Shown piece by piece: positions 9,494 through 31,008 of a stretch of 55,155 nucleotides of DNA (positions are counted from its first letter, which is position 1; each line of letters begins with the position of its first letter). The position numbers were made by a program, and so were the translations under genes. The DNA is from Candidatus Rokuibacteriota bacterium (GTDB lineage: Bacteria > Methylomirabilota > Methylomirabilia > Rokubacteriales > CSP1-6): assembly GCA_023248995.1 (NCBI GenBank), contig JAHFDN010000020.1, positions 1 through 55,155 on the forward strand, read 5' to 3'. The notes under the pieces were generated by a model. That model saw nothing but the letters and a program-made list of their open reading frames with translations. It had not been told where the DNA came from and did no database searches.

Positions 9494-11086
9494 ATGACTG
9501 GAGCCGAGTTACTGGTTCGCTGCCTGGAGCAGGAGGGAGTCCGTTACGTGTTCGGGGTGCCCGGGGAGGAGACGCTGGACGTCAACGAGGCGCTCGCGGG
9601 ATCCTCTATCCAGTTCATTCCGGTCCGCCACGAACAGGCCGCTGCCTTCATGGCGGACGTTTGGGGCCGCTTGACCGGCCAAGCGGGCGTGTGCTTGGCC
9701 ACCCTCGGACCGGGAGCCACAAATCTCGCCACCGGTCTGGCGGATGCGAATCTCGATCGCGCCCCGGTTGTGGCCATTACGGGCCAGCTGCCTCGGCATC
9801 TGCTCCACAAGGAATCGCACCAGTACGTCGATATTGTGGAAGCCTTTCGCCCGTTTACGAAGTGGAATGCTCGCATAGAGACGGGTGCGGTCGTGGCCGA
9901 GGCCGTACGAAAGGCGTTCAAGCGAGCCCAGGAGGAGAAGCCCGGGGCGTGCCACCTGGAGCTGCCCGAAGATGTGGCGCACGAACCCGCCGAGGGGGAA
10001 CCCCTGCGAGCCGATCGCCCGCGCCGCCCCTCACCGGATCGACCATCGCTGGCACGCGCAGCCGACATCATCAACCGAGCCAAGCACCCCATCATCCTCG
10101 CGGGCAATGGGGTCATCCGCGGCCGGGCGTCCGAGGAATTGACGCATTTCGCCGAGCGAGCTCAGACGCCAGTCGTCATGACGTTCATGGCAAAGGGGGC
10201 CATTTCGGCCGACCACCCATTGGCGCTGACGACGGTCGGTCTTGCCTTAGAGAGCCCGGAGCGCGCGGGGTTCTCGGGCGCGGACGTGGTGATCGCGGTG
10301 GGGTATGACCCGGTGGAGTACGGCCCAGTGAGGTGGAATCCTGCGGATCACGTCCAGATTGTCCACATCGACTTCACCGCGGCCGAGGTCGACGCCCGCT
10401 ACCAGCCAGCGGTCGAGATCGTGGCCGACGTGCGTGAGGCTCTTGAGCTCCTCGCCCCGCTTGTCGCGGCTCGGCCTGACCGCGTCCCGCCCGAGCGCCC
10501 TCCGGACGACGTTCGACGCTTGGACGACCGGGTTCCGTTGCTCCCCCAGCGCATCATCGCGGACCTCGAATCGGTCCTGAAGCCGGAGGACCTGGTGATC
10601 TCAGATGTCGGAGCGCACAAGCTGTGGCTGGCGAAGCGTTATCGAGCACGCCTGCCGAATACGGTGATCATCTCGAACGGTTTTGCGGCCATGGGGATCG
10701 GCCTGCCCGGGGCCATCGCAGCGAAGCTGGCTCAGCCCGACCGCCGGGTCGTGGCCGTGACCGGCGACGGCGGGTTCTTGATGAATATCCAGGAACTTGA
10801 AACCGCTGTCCGGCTGGGGCTGGCCTTCGTGGTACTGATCTTCCGCGACAACGGGTATGGCTCGATTCGTTGGAAGCAGGAGCGGGAGTTTGGTCGCTCG
10901 GCGGGTGTTGACTTCGGAAATCCGGACTTCGTGACCTTGGCGCACGCGTTTGGCTGCGAAGGCGTACGGATCAAGGCAGCCGGCGAACTCCGACCGTCCC
11001 TTGAGGGGGCCCTAAAGGCATCGGTCCCGGTCCTGATTGATTGCCCGGTGGACTACTCCGAGAACGATCGGCTTATTGAGCAATAA
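9494..11086 (+). CDS. TPP-dependent enzyme, acetolactate synthase large-subunit type
   Basis: 530 residues with the three domains of TPP decarboxylase/synthases. The catalytic Glu is in VRHEQAAAFMA near residue 49. The central Rossmann-like domain includes HPIILAGNGVIRG. The C-terminal TPP site is GDGGFLMNIQELETAVR followed by FRDNGYGSI. The QELETAVR block and the YSENDRL end resemble catabolic acetolactate synthases (AlsS-like). No small regulatory subunit (IlvN) is nearby. ATG 9494 has AGGAGATC 6 nt upstream and gives a normal N-terminus (MTGAELLVRCLEQEGV). It is followed 27 bp later by NDH-2. Glyoxylate carboligase or another benzoylformate-type activity cannot be excluded. Confidence 0.87.
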   Translation: MTGAELLVRCLEQEGVRYVFGVPGEETLDVNEALAGSSIQFIPVRHEQAAAFMADVWGRLTGQAGVCLATLGPGATNLATGLADANLDRAPVVAITGQLPRHLLHKESHQYVDIVEAFRPFTKWNARIETGAVVAEAVRKAFKRAQEEKPGACHLELPEDVAHEPAEGEPLRADRPRRPSPDRPSLARAADIINRAKHPIILAGNGVIRGRASEELTHFAERAQTPVVMTFMAKGAISADHPLALTTVGLALESPERAGFSGADVVIAVGYDPVEYGPVRWNPADHVQIVHIDFTAAEVDARYQPAVEIVADVREALELLAPLVAARPDRVPPERPPDDVRRLDDRVPLLPQRIIADLESVLKPEDLVISDVGAHKLWLAKRYRARLPNTVIISNGFAAMGIGLPGAIAAKLAQPDRRVVAVTGDGGFLMNIQELETAVRLGLAFVVLIFRDNGYGSIRWKQEREFGRSAGVDFGNPDFVTLAHAFGCEGVRIKAAGELRPSLEGALKASVPVLIDCPVDYSENDRLIEQ

Positions 11087-17588: not shown

Positions 17589-18683
17589 CTACTGAACCAG
17601 GAAACGCCGGATAGCCTTCTCTTCCCAGATGATGCCGACTCCTGAGACGTTGGAAACGAGCGCGTGGCCACCCTCGACCTTCAGCGGTTCGCACAGAATG
17701 GGGTTCGCCCAGTCGACATACTCCAACCAGTGACAGGTTGGAGTCACGGCCAAAAGATGGGCACTCATCTCAGGGAACAGATGGCTTGACATCGGCACTC
17801 CGGCAGACTCGGCGAGCGCTGCGGCACGTAGCCAACCTGTGACGCCGCCGATCTTCATCACATCGGGCATGACGAAGTCCGAGGCGCTAGCGGCTAGCGA
17901 CTTGGCCATGTCATGGGGACCCCACCAGTTTTCACCAATCTGGATCGGGGTCTTTGCCTCGCGGCTGATGTGTGCATGGCCGACATCGTCATCCGCCAGA
18001 GTGGGTTCTTCGACCCAGACGAGGTGTTCCTCGTCCAGGGCATGGATGCGCCGTATCGCTTCCGGCACGGAAAGGGACTGGTTGTAGTCCGCCATGAGCA
18101 AGACGCCTTTCCCGACGGACTGCCTGACGGCCTGAACGACGGCAATATCGGTCTCCAAATCCGGATACCCCAACCTGACCTTTATCGCGTGAAAGCCGGG
18201 CGCGACCAACTCCTGCGCTTCGGCCCCTGCACGTTCACTCCCGATGATCCCGAGGCCGCAACTATTGTAGGCGGGGATCGGGCGCGGTTCCCCACCGAGG
18301 AGCCGCACCAGCGGCATCTCGCTCGCCTTGGCGAGGGCATCCCAGACGGCCATGTCGATGCCGGCGAGCGCCATTCCCGTAAAGCCCTGCGGGCCGAGCA
18401 AGCGAAAACGCCGCTGCAGTTTCCGCTCGATCGCGAACGGAGCAAGACCATCACCTTTGATGAGCTCTTCAAGATTGGTGAGAAGCTGCGTCATGGGCTG
18501 GAGCGCAAGCGGCGTGTAGCAAAAGATGTAGCTAGAGCCTGTCACTCCTTCCTCAGTCCGGATATCTATCAGGACCAACGGGGCCGTGCCAACCAGACCG
18601 CCACTTGTCTGAAGCGGCCGCTGCATTGGCACGTTCACGGCGCGCGCCTGTAAGGCCCGAATGGTCAGTGTGTGTTGCGCCAT
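17589..18683 (-). CDS. Mandelate-racemase-type enolase-superfamily enzyme with K166R-equivalent change
   Basis: 364 residues, closely resembling Pseudomonas mandelate racemase, with a constant offset of +4. Metal ligands are D199, E225 and E251. N201, the His-Asp dyad H301/D274 (SSHLFPE, MPDVMKIGG) and E321 are all present. K168 corresponds to Lys164. Residue 170, the S-specific acid/base Lys166 of the model enzyme, is Arg (codon AGG at 18174-18176). Local matches such as GVTGW, SAHLLA and GVGIIWEEKAI are strong. The change argues against simple mandelate racemisation and for a dehydratase-like or one-handed reaction on a 2-hydroxy or 2-amino acid. It lies 5 bp after a VOC gene in one operon. 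Confidence 0.88.
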   Translation of the reverse strand: MAQHTLTIRALQARAVNVPMQRPLQTSGGLVGTAPLVLIDIRTEEGVTGSSYIFCYTPLALQPMTQLLTNLEELIKGDGLAPFAIERKLQRRFRLLGPQGFTGMALAGIDMAVWDALAKASEMPLVRLLGGEPRPIPAYNSCGLGIIGSERAGAEAQELVAPGFHAIKVRLGYPDLETDIAVVQAVRQSVGKGVLLMADYNQSLSVPEAIRRIHALDEEHLVWVEEPTLADDDVGHAHISREAKTPIQIGENWWGPHDMAKSLAASASDFVMPDVMKIGGVTGWLRAAALAESAGVPMSSHLFPEMSAHLLAVTPTCHWLEYVDWANPILCEPLKVEGGHALVSNVSGVGIIWEEKAIRRFLVQ

Positions 18684-18688
18684 GAGTC

Positions 18689-19084
18689 TTACCCGCGCCC
18701 CTCCTCCTTCTTCGGCTCCTGAACCAACTCGACGAGGAGCCCCCCGAGGGGTTTGAGAAAATTTACCAGGAGCCCCCGGATGGCGGGAGCCGGCTCATCG
18801 AATATGAAATCACCTGCTGAAAAAGGAGTAGGGCGGCGGATGTTCTCGACGGCAAATGCGATATGGTGGAGGACAGACTTGCCCCCGAGGAACTTGACAA
18901 GCCTCGACTCCTCCTCAGGGACGACAAATTCAATCATTGGAAACTTGGTCGAGAAGGCGCAGAAACACTGAAACGCCGGCACCGGCCCCCAGACCAACGG
19001 GGTGTTGTCTCTGAGCCGCTCCTGGCAAAGCTCATTGGCAATGTTGACCGACCGAACCACCATGCCGACATGGTGAAACTTCAT
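18689..19084 (-). CDS. VOC-superfamily (glyoxalase/methylmalonyl-CoA-epimerase-like) protein
   Basis: 131 residues, one VOC module pair. Candidate metal ligands are His in KFHHVGMVV, Glu in PMIEFVVP, His in LHHIAFAVEN and Glu in GLLVELVQEP, the usual H-E-H-E spread. VOC enzymes isomerise, epimerise or cleave small acids through a bound metal. The context, directly upstream of a mandelate-racemase homologue, suggests a second step on the same acid. The start ATG 19084 has GGGGG 5 nt upstream. A weak minus-strand promoter, TTGACG (19124-19119) with GAAAGT 17 bp on, may serve both genes. Confidence 0.78.
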   Translation of the reverse strand: MKFHHVGMVVRSVNIANELCQERLRDNTPLVWGPVPAFQCFCAFSTKFPMIEFVVPEEESRLVKFLGGKSVLHHIAFAVENIRRPTPFSAGDFIFDEPAPAIRGLLVNFLKPLGGLLVELVQEPKKEEGRG

Positions 19085-24821: not shown

Positions 24822-25517
24822 ATGACCCCCAGCGCGGCGAACTGGTTCGGAGGCGCCTTCCGGGCACTCCGTGTCGTCACCTCCGAGGGGCGGCGGCGTC
24901 TCTTCCTCCTCTCCCTCGCGGGGGTCATTGCCTACCAGCTCTTCGTTCTCTCGCCCTTCCTGGCCGCCGGCTCGCTCCCCAACTACTTCGAGGTGCACGA
25001 CGCCGGCGGGGCGATCCTCGAAACGCTGCGGCTCCGGCCGCCGCTCGCCGACCTCTGGGCCCTCGTCACCGACCAGCCGGTGTACGAGCTCGGGGTGCAG
25101 GACCGGTTCGGCTTCATCTCGCTCCAGTTCGTCGCGACCCCCCATTCGCTCTTCACGATGCTTTTCCTGCCGCCGCTGGTGGCGCTCTCGCTCCTCCTCC
25201 TGGCGCGGACCTGGACGGTCCTGCGGCGGGGCTCCAGCATGGCGGTGGGGGTCGCCGGGTTTTCCGCGTCCACCGTGGCGAGCCTCTTCGGGGCAAGCAC
25301 CTCGGCCGTGGCCTGTTGCGGGGCGTCGAGCGGCCCGGTCTTTCTCTCGCTGCTCGGCTTCGGCTTCGGCTCGGCCGCCGTCATCGTGGATCACGCTGAG
25401 GTGCTGGAGCTGTCCGGGTACGCGCTCCTTCTGGCGAACATCCTGGGCCTTGCCGGCTGGCTCGGCCGGGGGGCGAATCTTCACGCCACGGCCGGACCGG
25501 GGAAAGTGTGCCGATGA
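24822..25517 (+). CDS. Unknown integral membrane protein with a Cys-Cys motif
   Basis: 231 residues. A cytoplasmic start (FRALRVVTSEGRRR) leads to a first helix (LFLLSLAGVIAYQLFVLS), a soluble ~60-residue loop (ETLRLRPPLADLWALVTDQP), then three further helices, the third carrying STSAVACCGASSGPVFLSLLGFGFG. The CCG motif in a Gly/Ser-rich helix resembles thiol or metal-handling membrane proteins but I cannot assign a family. It lies between the binding protein and the nitrilase and overlaps the latter by ATGA, so it is probably part of the same pathway, for instance a product or substrate channel. Confidence 0.65.
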   Translation: MTPSAANWFGGAFRALRVVTSEGRRRLFLLSLAGVIAYQLFVLSPFLAAGSLPNYFEVHDAGGAILETLRLRPPLADLWALVTDQPVYELGVQDRFGFISLQFVATPHSLFTMLFLPPLVALSLLLLARTWTVLRRGSSMAVGVAGFSASTVASLFGASTSAVACCGASSGPVFLSLLGFGFGSAAVIVDHAEVLELSGYALLLANILGLAGWLGRGANLHATAGPGKVCR

Positions 25518-26548
25518 GCAGCTACCCCGCCTATAAGGTTGCCGCGGCGCACGTGTCGCCGGTCTTCCTCGACCGCGCCGCCACCGTGGACAAGACGTGC
25601 GCCGTCATCGAGGAAGCGGCACGCCATGGCGCCCAGCTCATCGCCTTTCCGGAGACGTACATCCCCGCGTTCCCGGTCTGGTGCTCGGTGCGGGCGCCGA
25701 TCTACAACCACGATTTCTTCCGGCGGCTCGCCGCCGACGCGATGCTGGTCCCCGGGCCCGAGCTCGCGCGCATCGGCGTGACCGGGCGCCGATGCGGCGT
25801 CGTCGTCTCTCTCGGCTTCAACGAGGGGACGAAGGCGAGCGTGGGCTGCCTCTGGAACGCCAACGTGCTGATCGGCGACGACGGGACCATCCTGAACCAC
25901 CATCGCAAGCTCGTGCCGACGTTCTACGAGAAGCTCGTCTGGGCCAACGGCGACGGCGCGGGGCTCAGGGTCTGCGAGACCCGCCTCGGGCGGATCGGCA
26001 TGCTGATCTGCGGCGAGAATACCAACCCGCTTGCCCGCTACACGCTCATGGCGCAGGGCGAGCAGGTCCACATCTCAACGTACCCGCCGGTCTGGCCGAC
26101 GAAGGATCCCAAGGGCGGCGGGAACTACAACTTGGCGAACGCGATCCGTATCCGCGCCGGCGCGCATTCGTTCGAGGCGAAGGCCTTCAACATCGTCGTC
26201 TCGGGCTTCATGGACGCGGCCATGCACGATGCGCTGGCCGACGGCGACCCGGAGGTGGCGCGCATCCTCGAGGCGAGCCCCCGCGGGGTGTCCATGGTCA
26301 TCGGGCCGACCGGGGATTCTATCGGTGGCACGCTGTCGGATTCGGAGGGCATCCTCTACGCTGACATCGACTTGGCCGCGTGCGTGGAGCCCAAGCAGTT
26401 CCACGACGTGGTCGGCTATTACAACCGCTTCGACATCTTCAAGCTCACGGTGAACCGGTCGGCCAACCGGCCGATCACCTTCGAGTTCGAATCGCCCGCG
26501 GACGAGCCGCCGGCGCCCCCCGCGGAGCCCGGGGTCCCCACCCCCTAG
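25514..26548 (+). CDS. Nitrilase (carbon-nitrogen hydrolase superfamily)
   Basis: 344 residues with the Glu-Lys-Cys triad: E in FPETYIPAFP near residue 46, K in NHHRKLVPTFYEKL near 131, C in LICGENTNPLARY near 165. The CGENTNPLAR block marks true nitrilases of the aliphatic/arylaliphatic type, which hydrolyse nitriles to acids and ammonia. The tail is Pro-rich (PADEPPAPPAEPGVP). ATG 25514 overlaps the preceding stop; GTG 25508 is in frame but less likely. Together with the upstream importer this looks like a nitrile or cyano-acid uptake and hydrolysis unit. Confidence 0.92.
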   Translation: MSSYPAYKVAAAHVSPVFLDRAATVDKTCAVIEEAARHGAQLIAFPETYIPAFPVWCSVRAPIYNHDFFRRLAADAMLVPGPELARIGVTGRRCGVVVSLGFNEGTKASVGCLWNANVLIGDDGTILNHHRKLVPTFYEKLVWANGDGAGLRVCETRLGRIGMLICGENTNPLARYTLMAQGEQVHISTYPPVWPTKDPKGGGNYNLANAIRIRAGAHSFEAKAFNIVVSGFMDAAMHDALADGDPEVARILEASPRGVSMVIGPTGDSIGGTLSDSEGILYADIDLAACVEPKQFHDVVGYYNRFDIFKLTVNRSANRPITFEFESPADEPPAPPAEPGVPTP

Positions 26549-26559
26549 TCCTCAAAGAA

Positions 26560-26585
26560 GGGACAGCCTTTATAAGAAATGTCCC
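26560..26585. repeat. Inverted repeat GGGACA-N14-TGTCCC between nitrilase and the second amino-acid cassette
   Basis: GGGACA (26560-26565) and TGTCCC (26580-26585) flank an A/T-rich 14-bp centre containing TTTATAAG. It lies 12 bp after the nitrilase stop. It may be a weak transcript-end hairpin or an operator over a -10-like TATAAG (26571-26576). The rest of the 235-bp gap up to 26784 shows no other gene, only GGGAGG before the next start. Confidence 0.35.
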
Positions 26586-26783
26586 ACTGAGCACAAAAGG
26601 AAGGCGGCACTGATCGGTTTCTTCTTTGCGAAAGGAGGCAATAGACTTGGGAGGTGTCCACGACGCTGCGTGGCCGATGGAACGGGACATGGCAGTGCAC
26701 TGCTAAACGAGGGGACGCCGAGGCGGCAAAGGCGAGCCAGATGGGGCGAGACCTGCGGCCGGATTCCTTCGCGGGAGGGTGTG

Positions 26784-27623
26784 ATGACAGTTGGTCGACT
26801 ACTGGCGCATCTATTGACGATAGCCGTGTTATTCGCGTCCGGAGCGAGCGCATGGGCGGAAGAGTCGAGACTCGACGTGGTCGTCAAACGCGACAAGCTG
26901 ATAGTAGGCACTTACAGCACAGCCCCGCCACTGGCATTTAGAGACAAACAAGGCGAGCTCGTCGGCTTTGAGATTGATATCGCCCGCCTCATTGCCAAGG
27001 AGCTACTGGGTGACGCGAATAAGATCGAGTTCGTCATCGTTCAGTCTGAAGGACGATTCCCTGCCGTGCTGTCGGGCAAGGTTGATTTTGCGATTGCCGC
27101 GACGACCATCTATCCACAGCGAGCCAGCAAGGTGGCATTCACCCATCCCTATATGGATAGCGGAACGGCTGTACTCGTCCGGAAGGACGCGAACGTTCGT
27201 TCGCTCGATGACCTGAATAACCCCAAGTTCACCATCACCGGCCAAAACAATCCGCAGAATGCAGAGCGGGCCAAACGCTTCGTGCCGAAGGCAAAGACGG
27301 TCTGGTTCGACTCGCCGAGCGAGTTGTTTCTCGCCGTAAAGTCAGGTCGTGCGACGGCTATGCAGACGGACACACCGATTGCGGATTATTATGCTCTTCA
27401 GAACAAGGATATGGTGGTCCTGCCGGACATGTTGGTGAAGCTAGGGGTCTCGAACAACGCCATCTTCATGAAGCCTGGAGACTTTACGTGGTGGCTGTAT
27501 CTCGACACCGTCGTGAGGGAGATCCGGTACGGGTCTCGGTACGCTGAATATACGGACCTGTTTCAGAAGTGGTTTGGGAAGAATCCACCTCCTCAACGAT
27601 TTTATCTTGGCGGCAGCAAGTAA
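26784..27623 (+). CDS. Polar amino-acid ABC transporter binding protein (SBP family 3), second cassette
   Basis: 279 residues, the same length as its paralogue at 4724-5563. Signal peptide RLLAHLLTIAVLFASGASA, then ESRLDVVVKRDKLIVGTYSTAPPL, GFEIDIARLIAKELL, EGRFPAVLSGKVDFAIAATT, and SGRATAMQTDTPIADYYA. ATG 26784 has GGGAGG 5 nt upstream. Codon use is less GC-rich than in the first cassette. It binds a polar amino acid for the permeases and ATPase that follow. Confidence 0.9.
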   Translation: MTVGRLLAHLLTIAVLFASGASAWAEESRLDVVVKRDKLIVGTYSTAPPLAFRDKQGELVGFEIDIARLIAKELLGDANKIEFVIVQSEGRFPAVLSGKVDFAIAATTIYPQRASKVAFTHPYMDSGTAVLVRKDANVRSLDDLNNPKFTITGQNNPQNAERAKRFVPKAKTVWFDSPSELFLAVKSGRATAMQTDTPIADYYALQNKDMVVLPDMLVKLGVSNNAIFMKPGDFTWWLYLDTVVREIRYGSRYAEYTDLFQKWFGKNPPPQRFYLGGSK

Positions 27624-27694
27624 CAGTGGGAACCGGCGCGCCAGCGGGCCCGCGCATCGTGCGGGTCGCTGGCGCGGCGCACCGTAAAAGGCTG

Positions 27695-28351
27695 ATGCCC
27701 ATTAATGTGTCCTTCTTAGTGCGCAACCTGCCTCTGTTTTACGAAGGGGCCGTCGTGACTATCGAACTGTCTGTGTTGACCATTGTGATCGTTATGGTGT
27801 GGGGCCTGGTGATTGTCACCGGGCGCGTGTCTCGCCTGCGACTATGGCGTCTTCTCGCCGGCGGCTATATTCAGCTCGTGCGAAACACCCCCGTCCTGGT
27901 GCAGATGTATTTCATATATTTTGGCCTGGCCATGGCGGGGTTTGGCTTGTCCGGATTCGCCTCGGGACTACTAGCGCTATCGCTGCAAAATGGCGGCTAT
28001 GTGGCCGAAATCTATCGAGCCGGTTTCGAGTCAATCAGCATGAAGCAGATCGAGGGGGCGAAGGCTCTGGGCATGACCCGGTGGTCGTTGTTGTGGCTCG
28101 TAGTGCTACCGCAGGCATTCGTGCGTGTGATTCCTCCCCTCGGCAACCAGCTCATCCTGATCATCAAGGATACGTCGCTCGTCTCCGCGATCGCGGTTGG
28201 AGAGCTCACGCAGACGGGAAAGTTGTTGAGCGAGCGGACGGCGGCGACGTACGAAATCTTTTTTACCCTGGCCGTGTTCTATCTCGTCATGACCTCGATC
28301 GTAGGCGGGATGGTCCGCCTCTACGAACGCCGATTCGCCATCGCTCACTGA
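27695..28351 (+). CDS. Polar amino-acid ABC transporter permease, second cassette, subunit 1
   Basis: About 218 residues: QLVRNTPVLVQMYFIYFGLA, LQNGGYVAEIYRAGFESI, EAA-like QIEGAKALGMTRWSLLWLVVLP, and a conserved IKDTSLVSAIAVGELTQTGK. ATG 27695 is the first Met giving a normal N-terminus (PINVSFLVRNLPLFYEG); no clear ribosome binding site is seen, so the exact start is uncertain. The 71-bp gap before it is filled by a GC-rich stretch without features. Confidence 0.88.
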   Translation: MPINVSFLVRNLPLFYEGAVVTIELSVLTIVIVMVWGLVIVTGRVSRLRLWRLLAGGYIQLVRNTPVLVQMYFIYFGLAMAGFGLSGFASGLLALSLQNGGYVAEIYRAGFESISMKQIEGAKALGMTRWSLLWLVVLPQAFVRVIPPLGNQLILIIKDTSLVSAIAVGELTQTGKLLSERTAATYEIFFTLAVFYLVMTSIVGGMVRLYERRFAIAH

Positions 28352-28361
28352 GGGGCAGTCA

Positions 28362-29012
28362 GTGTTACCCACGGTGTTAATCGATAATATCGGGTATCTC
28401 TCGAGGGCTGCGGGTATGACGATACTGCTGTCGATCGCAAGTGTCGTCCCGAGCGCCGTGATCGGCATGATCGTCGCGCTGCTGAAGATATTCGGCAGTG
28501 TTCCCATTCGTGTGTTGATGGATGTGTATCTCTATGTGGTTCGAGGGGTGCCGCTTCTCGTGCTCTTGTTTTTCATGTATTTCGTGCTGCCTTACTCCGG
28601 GCTAAACCTGCCGCCGACGCTTGGCGGAGTCCTGGTAATGTCCATCTATTTCGGGGCCTTCATGAGTGAAGTATTCCGGGCGGCGATCATCTCGCTTCCA
28701 AGGGGGCAGTGGGATGCTGCGCGGAGTCTGGGTATGCGGCGGGCACGGACGCTCGGCATTGTCATTTTCCCGCAGGCCTTTCGCCTTGCCGCTCCACCGT
28801 TTGTCAACACCTGCATCCTGCTCATAAAGAGCACATCCTTGGTGTCGATCATCAGTCTGTGGGAGCTCACGATGGCGGGCCGCGAAGTGGCGGAGCGAAC
28901 GTTTGCTCCCATGGAGATCTTCGGAGGAATCGCGCTCATCTACTTCGGCATCTGCTATTCCCTATCCCGCTACGGCCAGTACCTCGAGGGGCGGATGCGC
29001 TTTGGCCACTGA
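28362..29012 (+). CDS. Polar amino-acid ABC transporter permease, second cassette, subunit 2
   Basis: 216 residues: [42 protein letters not shown]-like [21 protein letters not shown], and [29 protein letters not shown] 28362 has GAGGGGC 6 nt upstream. It starts 10 bp after subunit 1 and ends 1 base before the ATPase start, so the three genes are one unit. Confidence 0.9.
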
Positions 29013-29013
29013 A

Positions 29014-29808
29014 ATGGGTGTCGACAGTGGGCATCCGACGGTCCAGCTTCGGAACGTGAGCGTGCGGTTCGGGCGGATGCAAGTCCTGAAACATGTGTCG
29101 CTGTCGATCGACCGACGCGAAGTTGTGGTGATCATTGGCCGAAGCGGGTCAGGCAAGACGACGCTGCTGCGGTGTATCAATTTCCTTGAGGAGTACGACG
29201 AAGGGGAGATCGTGGTAGATGGGGAGCTCATTGGCTACCGGACGGGACCGGATGGGCAACGGATCCGGAAGTCCGAGCGTGAGATCGCTGCCGCGCGTTC
29301 CAATATCGGAATGGTGTTCCAGAGCTACAACCTGTTTCCTCACATGACCGTCCTACGCAACATCATGGCCGGACCCATCCACGTAAGGAGGATGTCCCGC
29401 CAGGAGGCGGACGCGGGCGCCCGTGAATTGCTGGCGCGGGTTGGTCTGTCCGATAAGGTGGACGAATACCCCATAAAACTCTCGGGTGGGCAGCAGCAGC
29501 GCGTCGCGATCGCTCGCGCGTTGGCCATGCAGCCGAAGGTAATGCTTTTCGACGAGGTTACTTCGGCGCTAGATCCGGAACTCGTGGGAGAGGTTCTGGC
29601 GGTCATAAAGCAACTGGCGCGAGATGGGATGACCATGGTCGTAGTGACGCACGAAATGCAGTTTGCGCGCGATATCGCGAACAGAGTCGTCTTCATAGAT
29701 GAGGGGGTCATCGTTGAACAAGGCCAGCCAAGAGACCTGTTTTCTAACCCGTCCAGCGAACGACTCCGGGCGTTTCTCAAGCGGTACCGCGAGGGCTATC
29801 TGTTGTGA
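29014..29808 (+). CDS. Polar amino-acid ABC transporter ATP-binding protein, second cassette
   Basis: 264 residues. Walker [11 protein letters not shown]-loop in [15 protein letters not shown], signature LSGGQQQR, Walker [15 protein letters not shown], switch His in [12 protein letters not shown]. Both this protein and the ATPase at 6963-7721 have a ~14-residue insert between strands (a [13 protein letters not shown]-type segment here, YRAATGGARTRMP there), which supports descent of the two cassettes from one ancestor. ATG 29014 is 1 base after the permease stop. Confidence 0.92.
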
Positions 29809-29867
29809 GCGTTGTGCTGCTCGCGCCTTGAGACGTTCGCGGCTAATGAACTGAAGGGGACCTGTGA

Positions 29868-30971
29868 ATGAGTGCACAGCCGGGTGTGATCGGAATGCCC
29901 AAGGGGATGCTGGATACTCCGGTCCTTCTCGTAGATCTCGACATCATGGAGGAAAACATAGCCCGAATAGCGCGGGCGTGCCGAGAGAAGGGCATCAACT
30001 GGCGGCCGCACACGAAGGGGCAGAAGATACCCGCCATCGCGCATAAGCTGCTCGGCGCAGGTGCGATTGGTGTGAGCTGCGCCAAGCTAAGCGAAGCGGA
30101 GGTGATGGCGGCGGCAGGCATTCGGGACATTCTGATCGCCAACCAGGTTGCGGGCGAGCAAAAGATTGCCCGTCTGGTAAATCTGTTACGGCACGCGGAC
30201 ATCATCGTGGCCGTGGACAACGAGGAAAACGTGGCGGCGCTCGATGAGGCGGCCCGTGACAAGGGGGTGCGTCTGCGCGTCGTCGTCGAAGTGAATACTG
30301 GCAGTAATCGAGCCGGGGTGGAGCCGGGCGATGCGACGGTGGCCATGGCCCGCTTGGTCACTCGGCACGGCGGCTTGCACTTTGTGGGCCTGATGGCATG
30401 GGAAGGTCACACGGTTGAAATTGCCGATCAGACCGCCAAAGAGCAGGCGGTGGCCGCCGCCGTCAAGTTACTGACGGCTAGCGCTGACGCGTGCCGGGCT
30501 GTGGGACTGCCTGTCGAAATCGTCAGTTGTGGGGGAACTGGCACATACCGATTCACTGCCGCTCAGCCTGGTATCACCGAGATCCAAGCGGGCGGAGGCA
30601 TTTTTTCCGACATACGATACCGCACGAAGATGATGGTCGATCACCCGTATGCTCTCACGATTATGACCACTGTCTCGAGCCGGCCCAACCCCTACCGTAT
30701 CATCTGCGACGCGGGCAAAAAGGCTATGAGTAGTGATGCCGCGACGCCCGCGCCCATAGGGCTACACGGGGTCAAGTCGGTCAGTCTCTCCGCGGAGCAC
30801 GGGAGGGTCGACCTTGCTGAGCCAAATGATACCCTCCACGTGGGTGACAGGCTCGAGTTTGTCGTGGGTTATTCGGATACCACGGTTCACCTTTACGACG
30901 AGATGTACGGCGTCCGGAAGGGCAAGGTAGAAATTGTCTGGCCAATTCTTGGCAGAGGCAGGCTGAGCTGA
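29868..30971 (+). CDS. Fold-III PLP enzyme, D-threonine aldolase / D-serine dehydratase (DSD1) family
   Basis: 367 residues. The alanine-racemase-type barrel starts TPVLLVDLDIMEENIARIA; the PLP lysine is in RPHTKGQK near residue 51. The second domain (DSD1-like) includes GGGIFSDIRY and ends with GYSDTTVHLYDEMYGVRKG, where H and D replace the usual PNHxC metal pair in part. Family members act on D-threonine, D-serine or D-3-hydroxyaspartate. It lies 59 bp after the transporter ATPase, as the alanine-racemase-like gene does before the first transporter, so the imported compound is probably a D- or beta-hydroxy amino acid. Confidence 0.82.
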   Translation: MSAQPGVIGMPKGMLDTPVLLVDLDIMEENIARIARACREKGINWRPHTKGQKIPAIAHKLLGAGAIGVSCAKLSEAEVMAAAGIRDILIANQVAGEQKIARLVNLLRHADIIVAVDNEENVAALDEAARDKGVRLRVVVEVNTGSNRAGVEPGDATVAMARLVTRHGGLHFVGLMAWEGHTVEIADQTAKEQAVAAAVKLLTASADACRAVGLPVEIVSCGGTGTYRFTAAQPGITEIQAGGGIFSDIRYRTKMMVDHPYALTIMTTVSSRPNPYRIICDAGKKAMSSDAATPAPIGLHGVKSVSLSAEHGRVDLAEPNDTLHVGDRLEFVVGYSDTTVHLYDEMYGVRKGKVEIVWPILGRGRLS

Positions 30972-31008
30972 ACCCCAACTCGTTTGGGTACTTCAGGACG
31001 GGCGCTGA

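Follow-up and report, generated by a model that had tools for sequence, protein, structure and literature searches.

A conserved bacterial subfamily of mandelate-racemase-like enzymes with arginine in place of Lys166

Mandelate racemase (MR) is a model for the enzymatic removal of a weakly acidic proton, and Lys166 provides one half of its two-base mechanism. PMC9835602 gives Lys166 as the (S)-specific acid/base catalyst of MR and likewise states the role of His297, names Val22, Val26, Val29, Thr24 and Ala25 as pocket residues, and cites the K166R mutant for isotope effects. According to its PDB title, the engineered K166R enzyme was also crystallised with (R)-mandelate (1MDL).

Here we describe a gene on a 55,155-nucleotide stretch of contig JAHFDN010000020.1 from a Candidatus Rokuibacteriota bacterium (the window), whose product closely resembles MR but carries arginine at the Lys166 position. 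As judged from its sequence, this gene is a member of an old and widespread subfamily within the MR subgroup of the enolase superfamily. We call this the KxR type (Lys and Arg at MR positions 164 and 166), as opposed to the KxK type of MR. The preliminary description of the locus had viewed the arginine as a natural Lys-to-Arg change in an MR homologue, whereas the relationships presented below favor the opposite direction.

An MR-like active site with one exchanged residue

The gene, its upstream neighbor and the active-site positions assigned by alignment are located as follows.

17589..18683, minus strand: MR-like enolase-superfamily gene, 364 aa, KxR type (ORF, Pfam, PDB sequence matches, model)
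18689..19084, minus strand: VOC/glyoxalase-like gene, 131 aa, 5 bases upstream of the MR-like gene (ORF, weak Glyoxalase_4 match)
18240..18269, minus strand: residues 139-148 (YNSCGLGIIG), with Ser141 (MR Ser139) and a two-residue insert
18180..18182, minus strand: Lys168, at the MR Lys164 position
18174..18176, minus strand: AGG codon of Arg170, at the MR Lys166 position, end of barrel strand 2 (alignment; strand 166-170 of the model)
18087..18089, minus strand: Asp199, metal ligand position (MR Asp195)
18081..18083, minus strand: Asn201 (MR Asn197)
18009..18011, minus strand: Glu225, metal ligand position (MR Glu221)
17931..17933, minus strand: Glu251, metal ligand position (MR Glu247)
17862..17864, minus strand: Asp274 of the His-Asp dyad (MR Asp270)
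17781..17783, minus strand: His301, presumed acid/base catalyst (MR His297)
17721..17723, minus strand: Glu321 (MR Glu317)

The reading frame is intact, with no internal stops, and its product scores above the Pfam cut-offs for both MR_MLE_N (79.8 bits) and MR_MLE_C (183.2 bits). The protein combines the capping domain and barrel of the MR subgroup with three acidic metal ligands and a His-Asp dyad. Among PDB sequences searched with phmmer, MR is the best match, and the top-scoring chain is 1MDL, the engineered K166R mutant. An AlphaFold2 model (mean pLDDT 95.0) superposes on MR with Z scores of 54.1-54.7, the value for 1MDL being 54.7, and on 3UGV with Z 54.1.

The phmmer alignment places Arg170 opposite Lys166, and minus-strand codon 170 is indeed the AGG at 18174-18176 that the preliminary description had read as arginine at this position. 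Its statement that the His297/Asp270 pair is kept holds as well (His301/Asp274), and the metal site is also intact. Counterparts of Glu317, Lys164 and Asn197 are all present, but the (S)-specific catalyst of MR is replaced. The constant +4 offset to MR numbering that had been reported applies from Lys164 to Glu317, but Ser139, Val22, Phe52 and Leu93 align at +2; the step results from the two-residue insert after Ser139.

The pocket is similar to that of MR without being identical. Specifically, Val22, Thr24, Ala25, Val26 and Val29 of the MR phenyl pocket correspond to Leu, Thr, Ser, Gly and Val. When further MR positions that we take to line the pocket (e.g. 52, 54 and 298) are included, the window residues are Leu24, Thr26, Ser27, Gly28, Val31, Phe54, Tyr56, Leu302 and Val323, which are still mostly non-polar.

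Arginine and lysine among relatives and the direction of change

Relatives were taken from two sources: 148 genomes, 28 of which (the window's own genome included) contain a match at E 1e-60 or better, and a scan across genome contigs of bacteria and archaea, from which the best 80 of 382 were used. The genome sets for the class and for the phylum of the source genome are the same 95 genomes, and the sample is uneven, with many near-copies from Bradyrhizobium. Position 166 is Arg in 79 and Lys in 30 of the 109 aligned rows that include the window protein and MR. With these two set aside, Arg occurs in 78 of 107 homologues, which is far from the uniform lysine that the preliminary description would have taken as a sign of sequencing error or gene decay. 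That description had also suggested aligning close homologues to see whether Arg is conserved, and it is present in all 10 relatives with at least 64% identity to the window protein (L003, L030-L035, L037, L039, L041); the next-closest relatives include two Lys rows, L036 (62%) and L038 (61%). Addition of eight plasmid-borne relatives yields 117 sequences, window and MR again included, with 81 Arg and 36 Lys at this position. Lys164, Asp195, Asn197, Glu221, Glu247, Asp270, His297 and Glu317 are conserved in all 117. By these alignments, Arg at MR position 166 is the usual state of a large group of bacterial enzymes and no local change.

The codons agree with this reading. Among the 116 loci for which the codon was read, 74 of the 81 Arg codons are CGN and seven are AGA or AGG, and thus the AGG in the window is no sign of a recent step from AAG, even though a single transition separates the two. 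Furthermore, Ka/Ks values against four relatives are 0.091, 0.099, 0.138 and 0.102, although these are only rough given that Ks (1.7-2.3) is near saturation. A recent mutation, a sequencing error or a decaying mandelate racemase would have only the AGG-AAG similarity in its favor; against it stand the Arg residues and mostly CGN codons of the relatives, the Ka/Ks values, the intact frame, the kept active-site residues, the confident model and the topology test given below. We reject this explanation as having almost no chance of being correct.

Arginine is accompanied by a second trait. The spacing between Ser139 and Lys164 is 25-31 residues in 81 of 81 Arg enzymes and exactly 24 in every one of the 36 Lys enzymes, such that an insert after Ser139 like that of the window protein is the companion of Arg throughout the aligned family and is absent from the aligned KxK enzymes. 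Similarly, Asn occupies MR position 138 in 68 of 81 Arg sequences versus 3 of 36 Lys sequences. The association of Arg with the longer spacing comes down to one to four changes on the tree, and common descent by itself could therefore account for it.

A tree of 108 rows, from which the columns of both traits were left out, was rooted on four more distant paralogues. It comes from a quick search with SH-aLRT values and no bootstrap, contains several long branches, and has 31 weak inner branches out of 105. The MR-like clade comprises 90 rows (53 Arg, 37 Lys), and its successive basal branches are all Arg: a branch of 12 rows, then L017, then six rows with 3UGV, followed by further groups. The Lys groups, P. 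putida MR among them, are nested inside these Arg lineages, and the first splits have SH-aLRT values of 95 to 100. In this arrangement, Lys166 of MR looks derived. Reconstruction under an equal-rates two-state model gives probabilities of Arg of 0.90, 0.98, 0.999, 1.00 and 0.93 from the clade base onward and 0.82 at the last ancestor shared by MR and the window protein, and an unequal-rates model gives 1.00 at all six nodes. Apparently, then, Arg is the older state in the MR-like group as these sequences depict it and Lys166 of MR is the change, and the direction assumed in the preliminary description is probably to be reversed.

Could that direction nevertheless be right, with a single but old origin of Arg from Lys within the MR group? 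The 18 rows outside the MR-like clade (10 Lys, 5 Arg, 3 Gln) offer some encouragement, because with Lys in 10 of them the wider subgroup may still have lysine as its state. However, forcing the 53 Arg rows into one clade lowers lnL by 116 and is rejected by the AU test (p 0.000199), which makes a single old Lys-to-Arg origin very improbable. Forcing the 37 Lys rows into one clade is not rejected (AU p 0.584) and even yields a tree 4.3 lnL units better than the free search, so Lys may have arisen once. We give about even odds to an ancestral Arg, with two-base MR emerging from one-base KxR enzymes through Arg-to-Lys replacement at position 166 and deletion of two residues behind Ser139, perhaps as a single event.

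The KxR subfamily thus seems to precede the model enzyme. If Arg came first, KxR enzymes show how this active site worked before the racemase state, and residue 166 together with two loop residues offers a direct test of the addition of a second base. An ancestral Arg would also make the KxR enzymes a large uncharacterised class in which a conserved Arg takes the place of a textbook catalytic Lys. Searches of the openly licensed literature turned up no publication dealing with 3UGV or with any KxR member, and as far as these searches reach the conserved subfamily is uncharacterised; we know of no activity for any KxR member found here. A warning for annotation follows from the counts: the KxK type is in the minority among the genes of the sample that resemble mandelate racemase.

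Beyond the KxR and KxK types, three paralogues in related genomes (L112, L116 and L121) carry Gln (KMQ) where MR has Lys166 and retain the metal-ligand and His-Asp positions, a further replacement of the catalytic Lys. Enolase-superfamily paralogues are expanded in five related genomes (G016, G018, G051, G055 and G059), which hold 10 to 16 matches each to the window protein at E 1e-12, compared with one match over the MR_MLE_C cut-off in the window's own genome.

Gene neighborhoods and the mandelate pathway

Neighboring genes for FMN-dependent 2-hydroxy-acid dehydrogenases are a mark of mandelate pathways. A relative of this enzyme is encoded within 8 kb at 9 of 35 Lys loci, including L139, the source of the query, and at none of 73 Arg loci; the other 26 Lys loci likewise have no such neighbor. 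A close relative of benzoylformate decarboxylase (at least 65% identity) is found near seven Lys loci, again including L139, whereas identity is 23-27% for the three matches near Arg loci. The gene for the Lys enzyme of Rhizobium rhizogenes K84 stands in a run of genes annotated as benzoylformate decarboxylase, the FMN dehydrogenase and two nitrilases. These neighbors indicate that mandelate metabolism goes with some of the Lys enzymes.

The window lacks this signature. No full FMN 2-hydroxy-acid dehydrogenase was found in the genome (97% complete), where one partial FMN_dh match covers 114 of 350 positions. Nor was a benzoylformate decarboxylase found near the gene, so that the mandelate-pathway partners of MR, (S)-mandelate dehydrogenase and benzoylformate decarboxylase, are missing when the former is judged genome-wide and the latter by proximity. 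Two other genes were considered as candidates. A ThDP gene at 9497-11086, 6.5 kb from the MR-like gene, is an acetolactate synthase (713.6 bits versus a cut-off of 509), and a nitrilase at 25508-26548 falls under the Nit6803 cut-off (224.9 versus 502.6 bits). Given these scores, we do not read the pair as a mandelonitrile pathway.

Neighbors of KxR genes vary among loci, and no shared pathway was found from them. On plasmid 1 of Polaromonas sp. JS666 (L137:6081-8095), the KxR gene overlaps a gene of the ketopantoate reductase family by four bases, and at L095 a relative of the latter with 57% identity is found 244 bp away from the KxR gene; a link to 2-keto or 2-hydroxy acids is suggested for that branch. 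A Rieske oxygenase is present near a KxR gene in a single case (L147), and ORFs named by eye as acyl-CoA-ligase-like (L058, L065, L103) or CoA-transferase-like (L072) occur near others.

The preliminary description had envisioned that the enzyme might act together with the VOC protein encoded upstream, but adjacency is all that speaks for this partnership. The best curated matches of the VOC gene are weak (Glyoxalase_4, 21.4 bits, under the 27-bit cut-off), and no relative of it was found within 8 kb at 108 homologous loci, many of which are shorter than 8 kb. At one Arg locus (L148), an ORF 149 bp away looks by eye like a different VOC protein. The two window genes share a low GC3 (0.720 for the VOC gene, 0.726 for the MR-like gene) between the high values of the flanking genes pntB (0.948) and livH (0.911), and joint acquisition of the pair is therefore possible. 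A second low-GC stretch at 26500-31000 (1-kb windows down to 0.56; GC3 of 0.70 in the gene at 29868-30971) holds what appears by eye to be a polar amino-acid ABC transporter, along with one gene whose nearest curated family, under cut-off, is 3-hydroxy-D-aspartate aldolase.

Possible chemistry and comparison with known enzymes

How might such an enzyme function with Arg at the end of barrel strand 2? The window enzyme would bind a 2-hydroxy acid on Mg2+. Most of the non-polar pocket is kept (MR positions 22, 24, 25, 29, 52, 54 and 298), which points to a non-polar side chain on the substrate. His301, backed by Asp274, would remove the alpha proton from a single face, and Glu321 and Lys168 would stabilize the enolate. 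Arg170, located at the end of the neighboring strand, would remain charged and hold a leaving group, the enolate or the carboxylate, instead of taking the part of a free second base. With such one-sided chemistry the protein would lack fast two-base racemisation; it would instead be a lyase that works by dehydration or another beta-elimination, or would be confined to a single enantiomer. A point against dehydration is that it requires a beta leaving group, and non-polar pockets are unusual in sugar-acid dehydratases. As the preliminary description had proposed, the window enzyme may act on a single enantiomer, or as a dehydratase or epimerase. We regard an old KxR subfamily with one-sided His301-Asp274 chemistry and Arg170 as a charged holder as the best explanation of the sequence data, with a probability of roughly 0.5.

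Alternatively, Arg170 could be a working second acid/base, its pKa lowered by Lys168 and the changed loop, in a racemase or epimerase of a 2-hydroxy acid other than mandelate. The rest of the active site is MR-like, and likeness of the pocket to that of MR could equally mean a racemase; MR is the best sequence match, Arg acts as a base in some other enzymes, and here it might serve as a slow second acid/base. However, Arg is a poor base by established chemistry, and the mandelate-pathway neighbors sit with the Lys lineages rather than the Arg lineages. We consider catalysis by Arg170 somewhat unlikely.

An acid-sugar dehydratase, similar to talarate/galactarate or fuconate dehydratase, is a more doubtful proposal. 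After MR, these families are among those with the nearest solved structures, and L-talarate/galactarate dehydratase is the best NCBIfam family. In addition, the KxR gene of L140 is followed by an FAA-hydrolase-family gene, a relative of which lies 162 bp from the KxR gene at L037, and this family is frequent in sugar-acid pathways. Yet the NF047820 score is 199.1 bits against a cut-off of 500, identity to solved dehydratases is 24-28%, and the pocket positions are non-polar as in MR, which is unusual in sugar-acid dehydratases.

The window protein most resembles the following solved enzymes. P. putida MR (1MNS and others; K166R mutant 1MDL) shares its fold (rmsd 1.1-1.2 over 357-358 residues, 52% identity), metal ligands, Lys164, Asn197, His297-Asp270, Glu317 and much of the hydrophobic pocket, but differs in the residue at position 166, in the two-residue insert after Ser139 that the window protein has, and in the mandelate-pathway neighbors that the window gene is without. 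The Mg-containing 'enolase' 3UGV from alpha proteobacterium BAL199 (EFI-501650) is likewise of the KxR type (KLR) with the long stretch (rmsd 1.2, Z 54.1, 44% identity), but belongs to another KxR branch of the tree and has a different pocket, with Glu in place of Phe52 in its five closest relatives. Bradyrhizobium ORS278 BRADO_4202 (EFI-501651; 3TOY, and 3TTE with mandelic acid) has the MR-like fold (Z 52.6-52.9) but is KxK (KSK in 3TOY) with the short stretch. Finally, L-talarate/galactarate dehydratase (2PP0, 3CB3) has the MR-subgroup fold in common (Z 46-47), but at 26-27% identity, and the window protein misses its NCBIfam equivalog cut-off.
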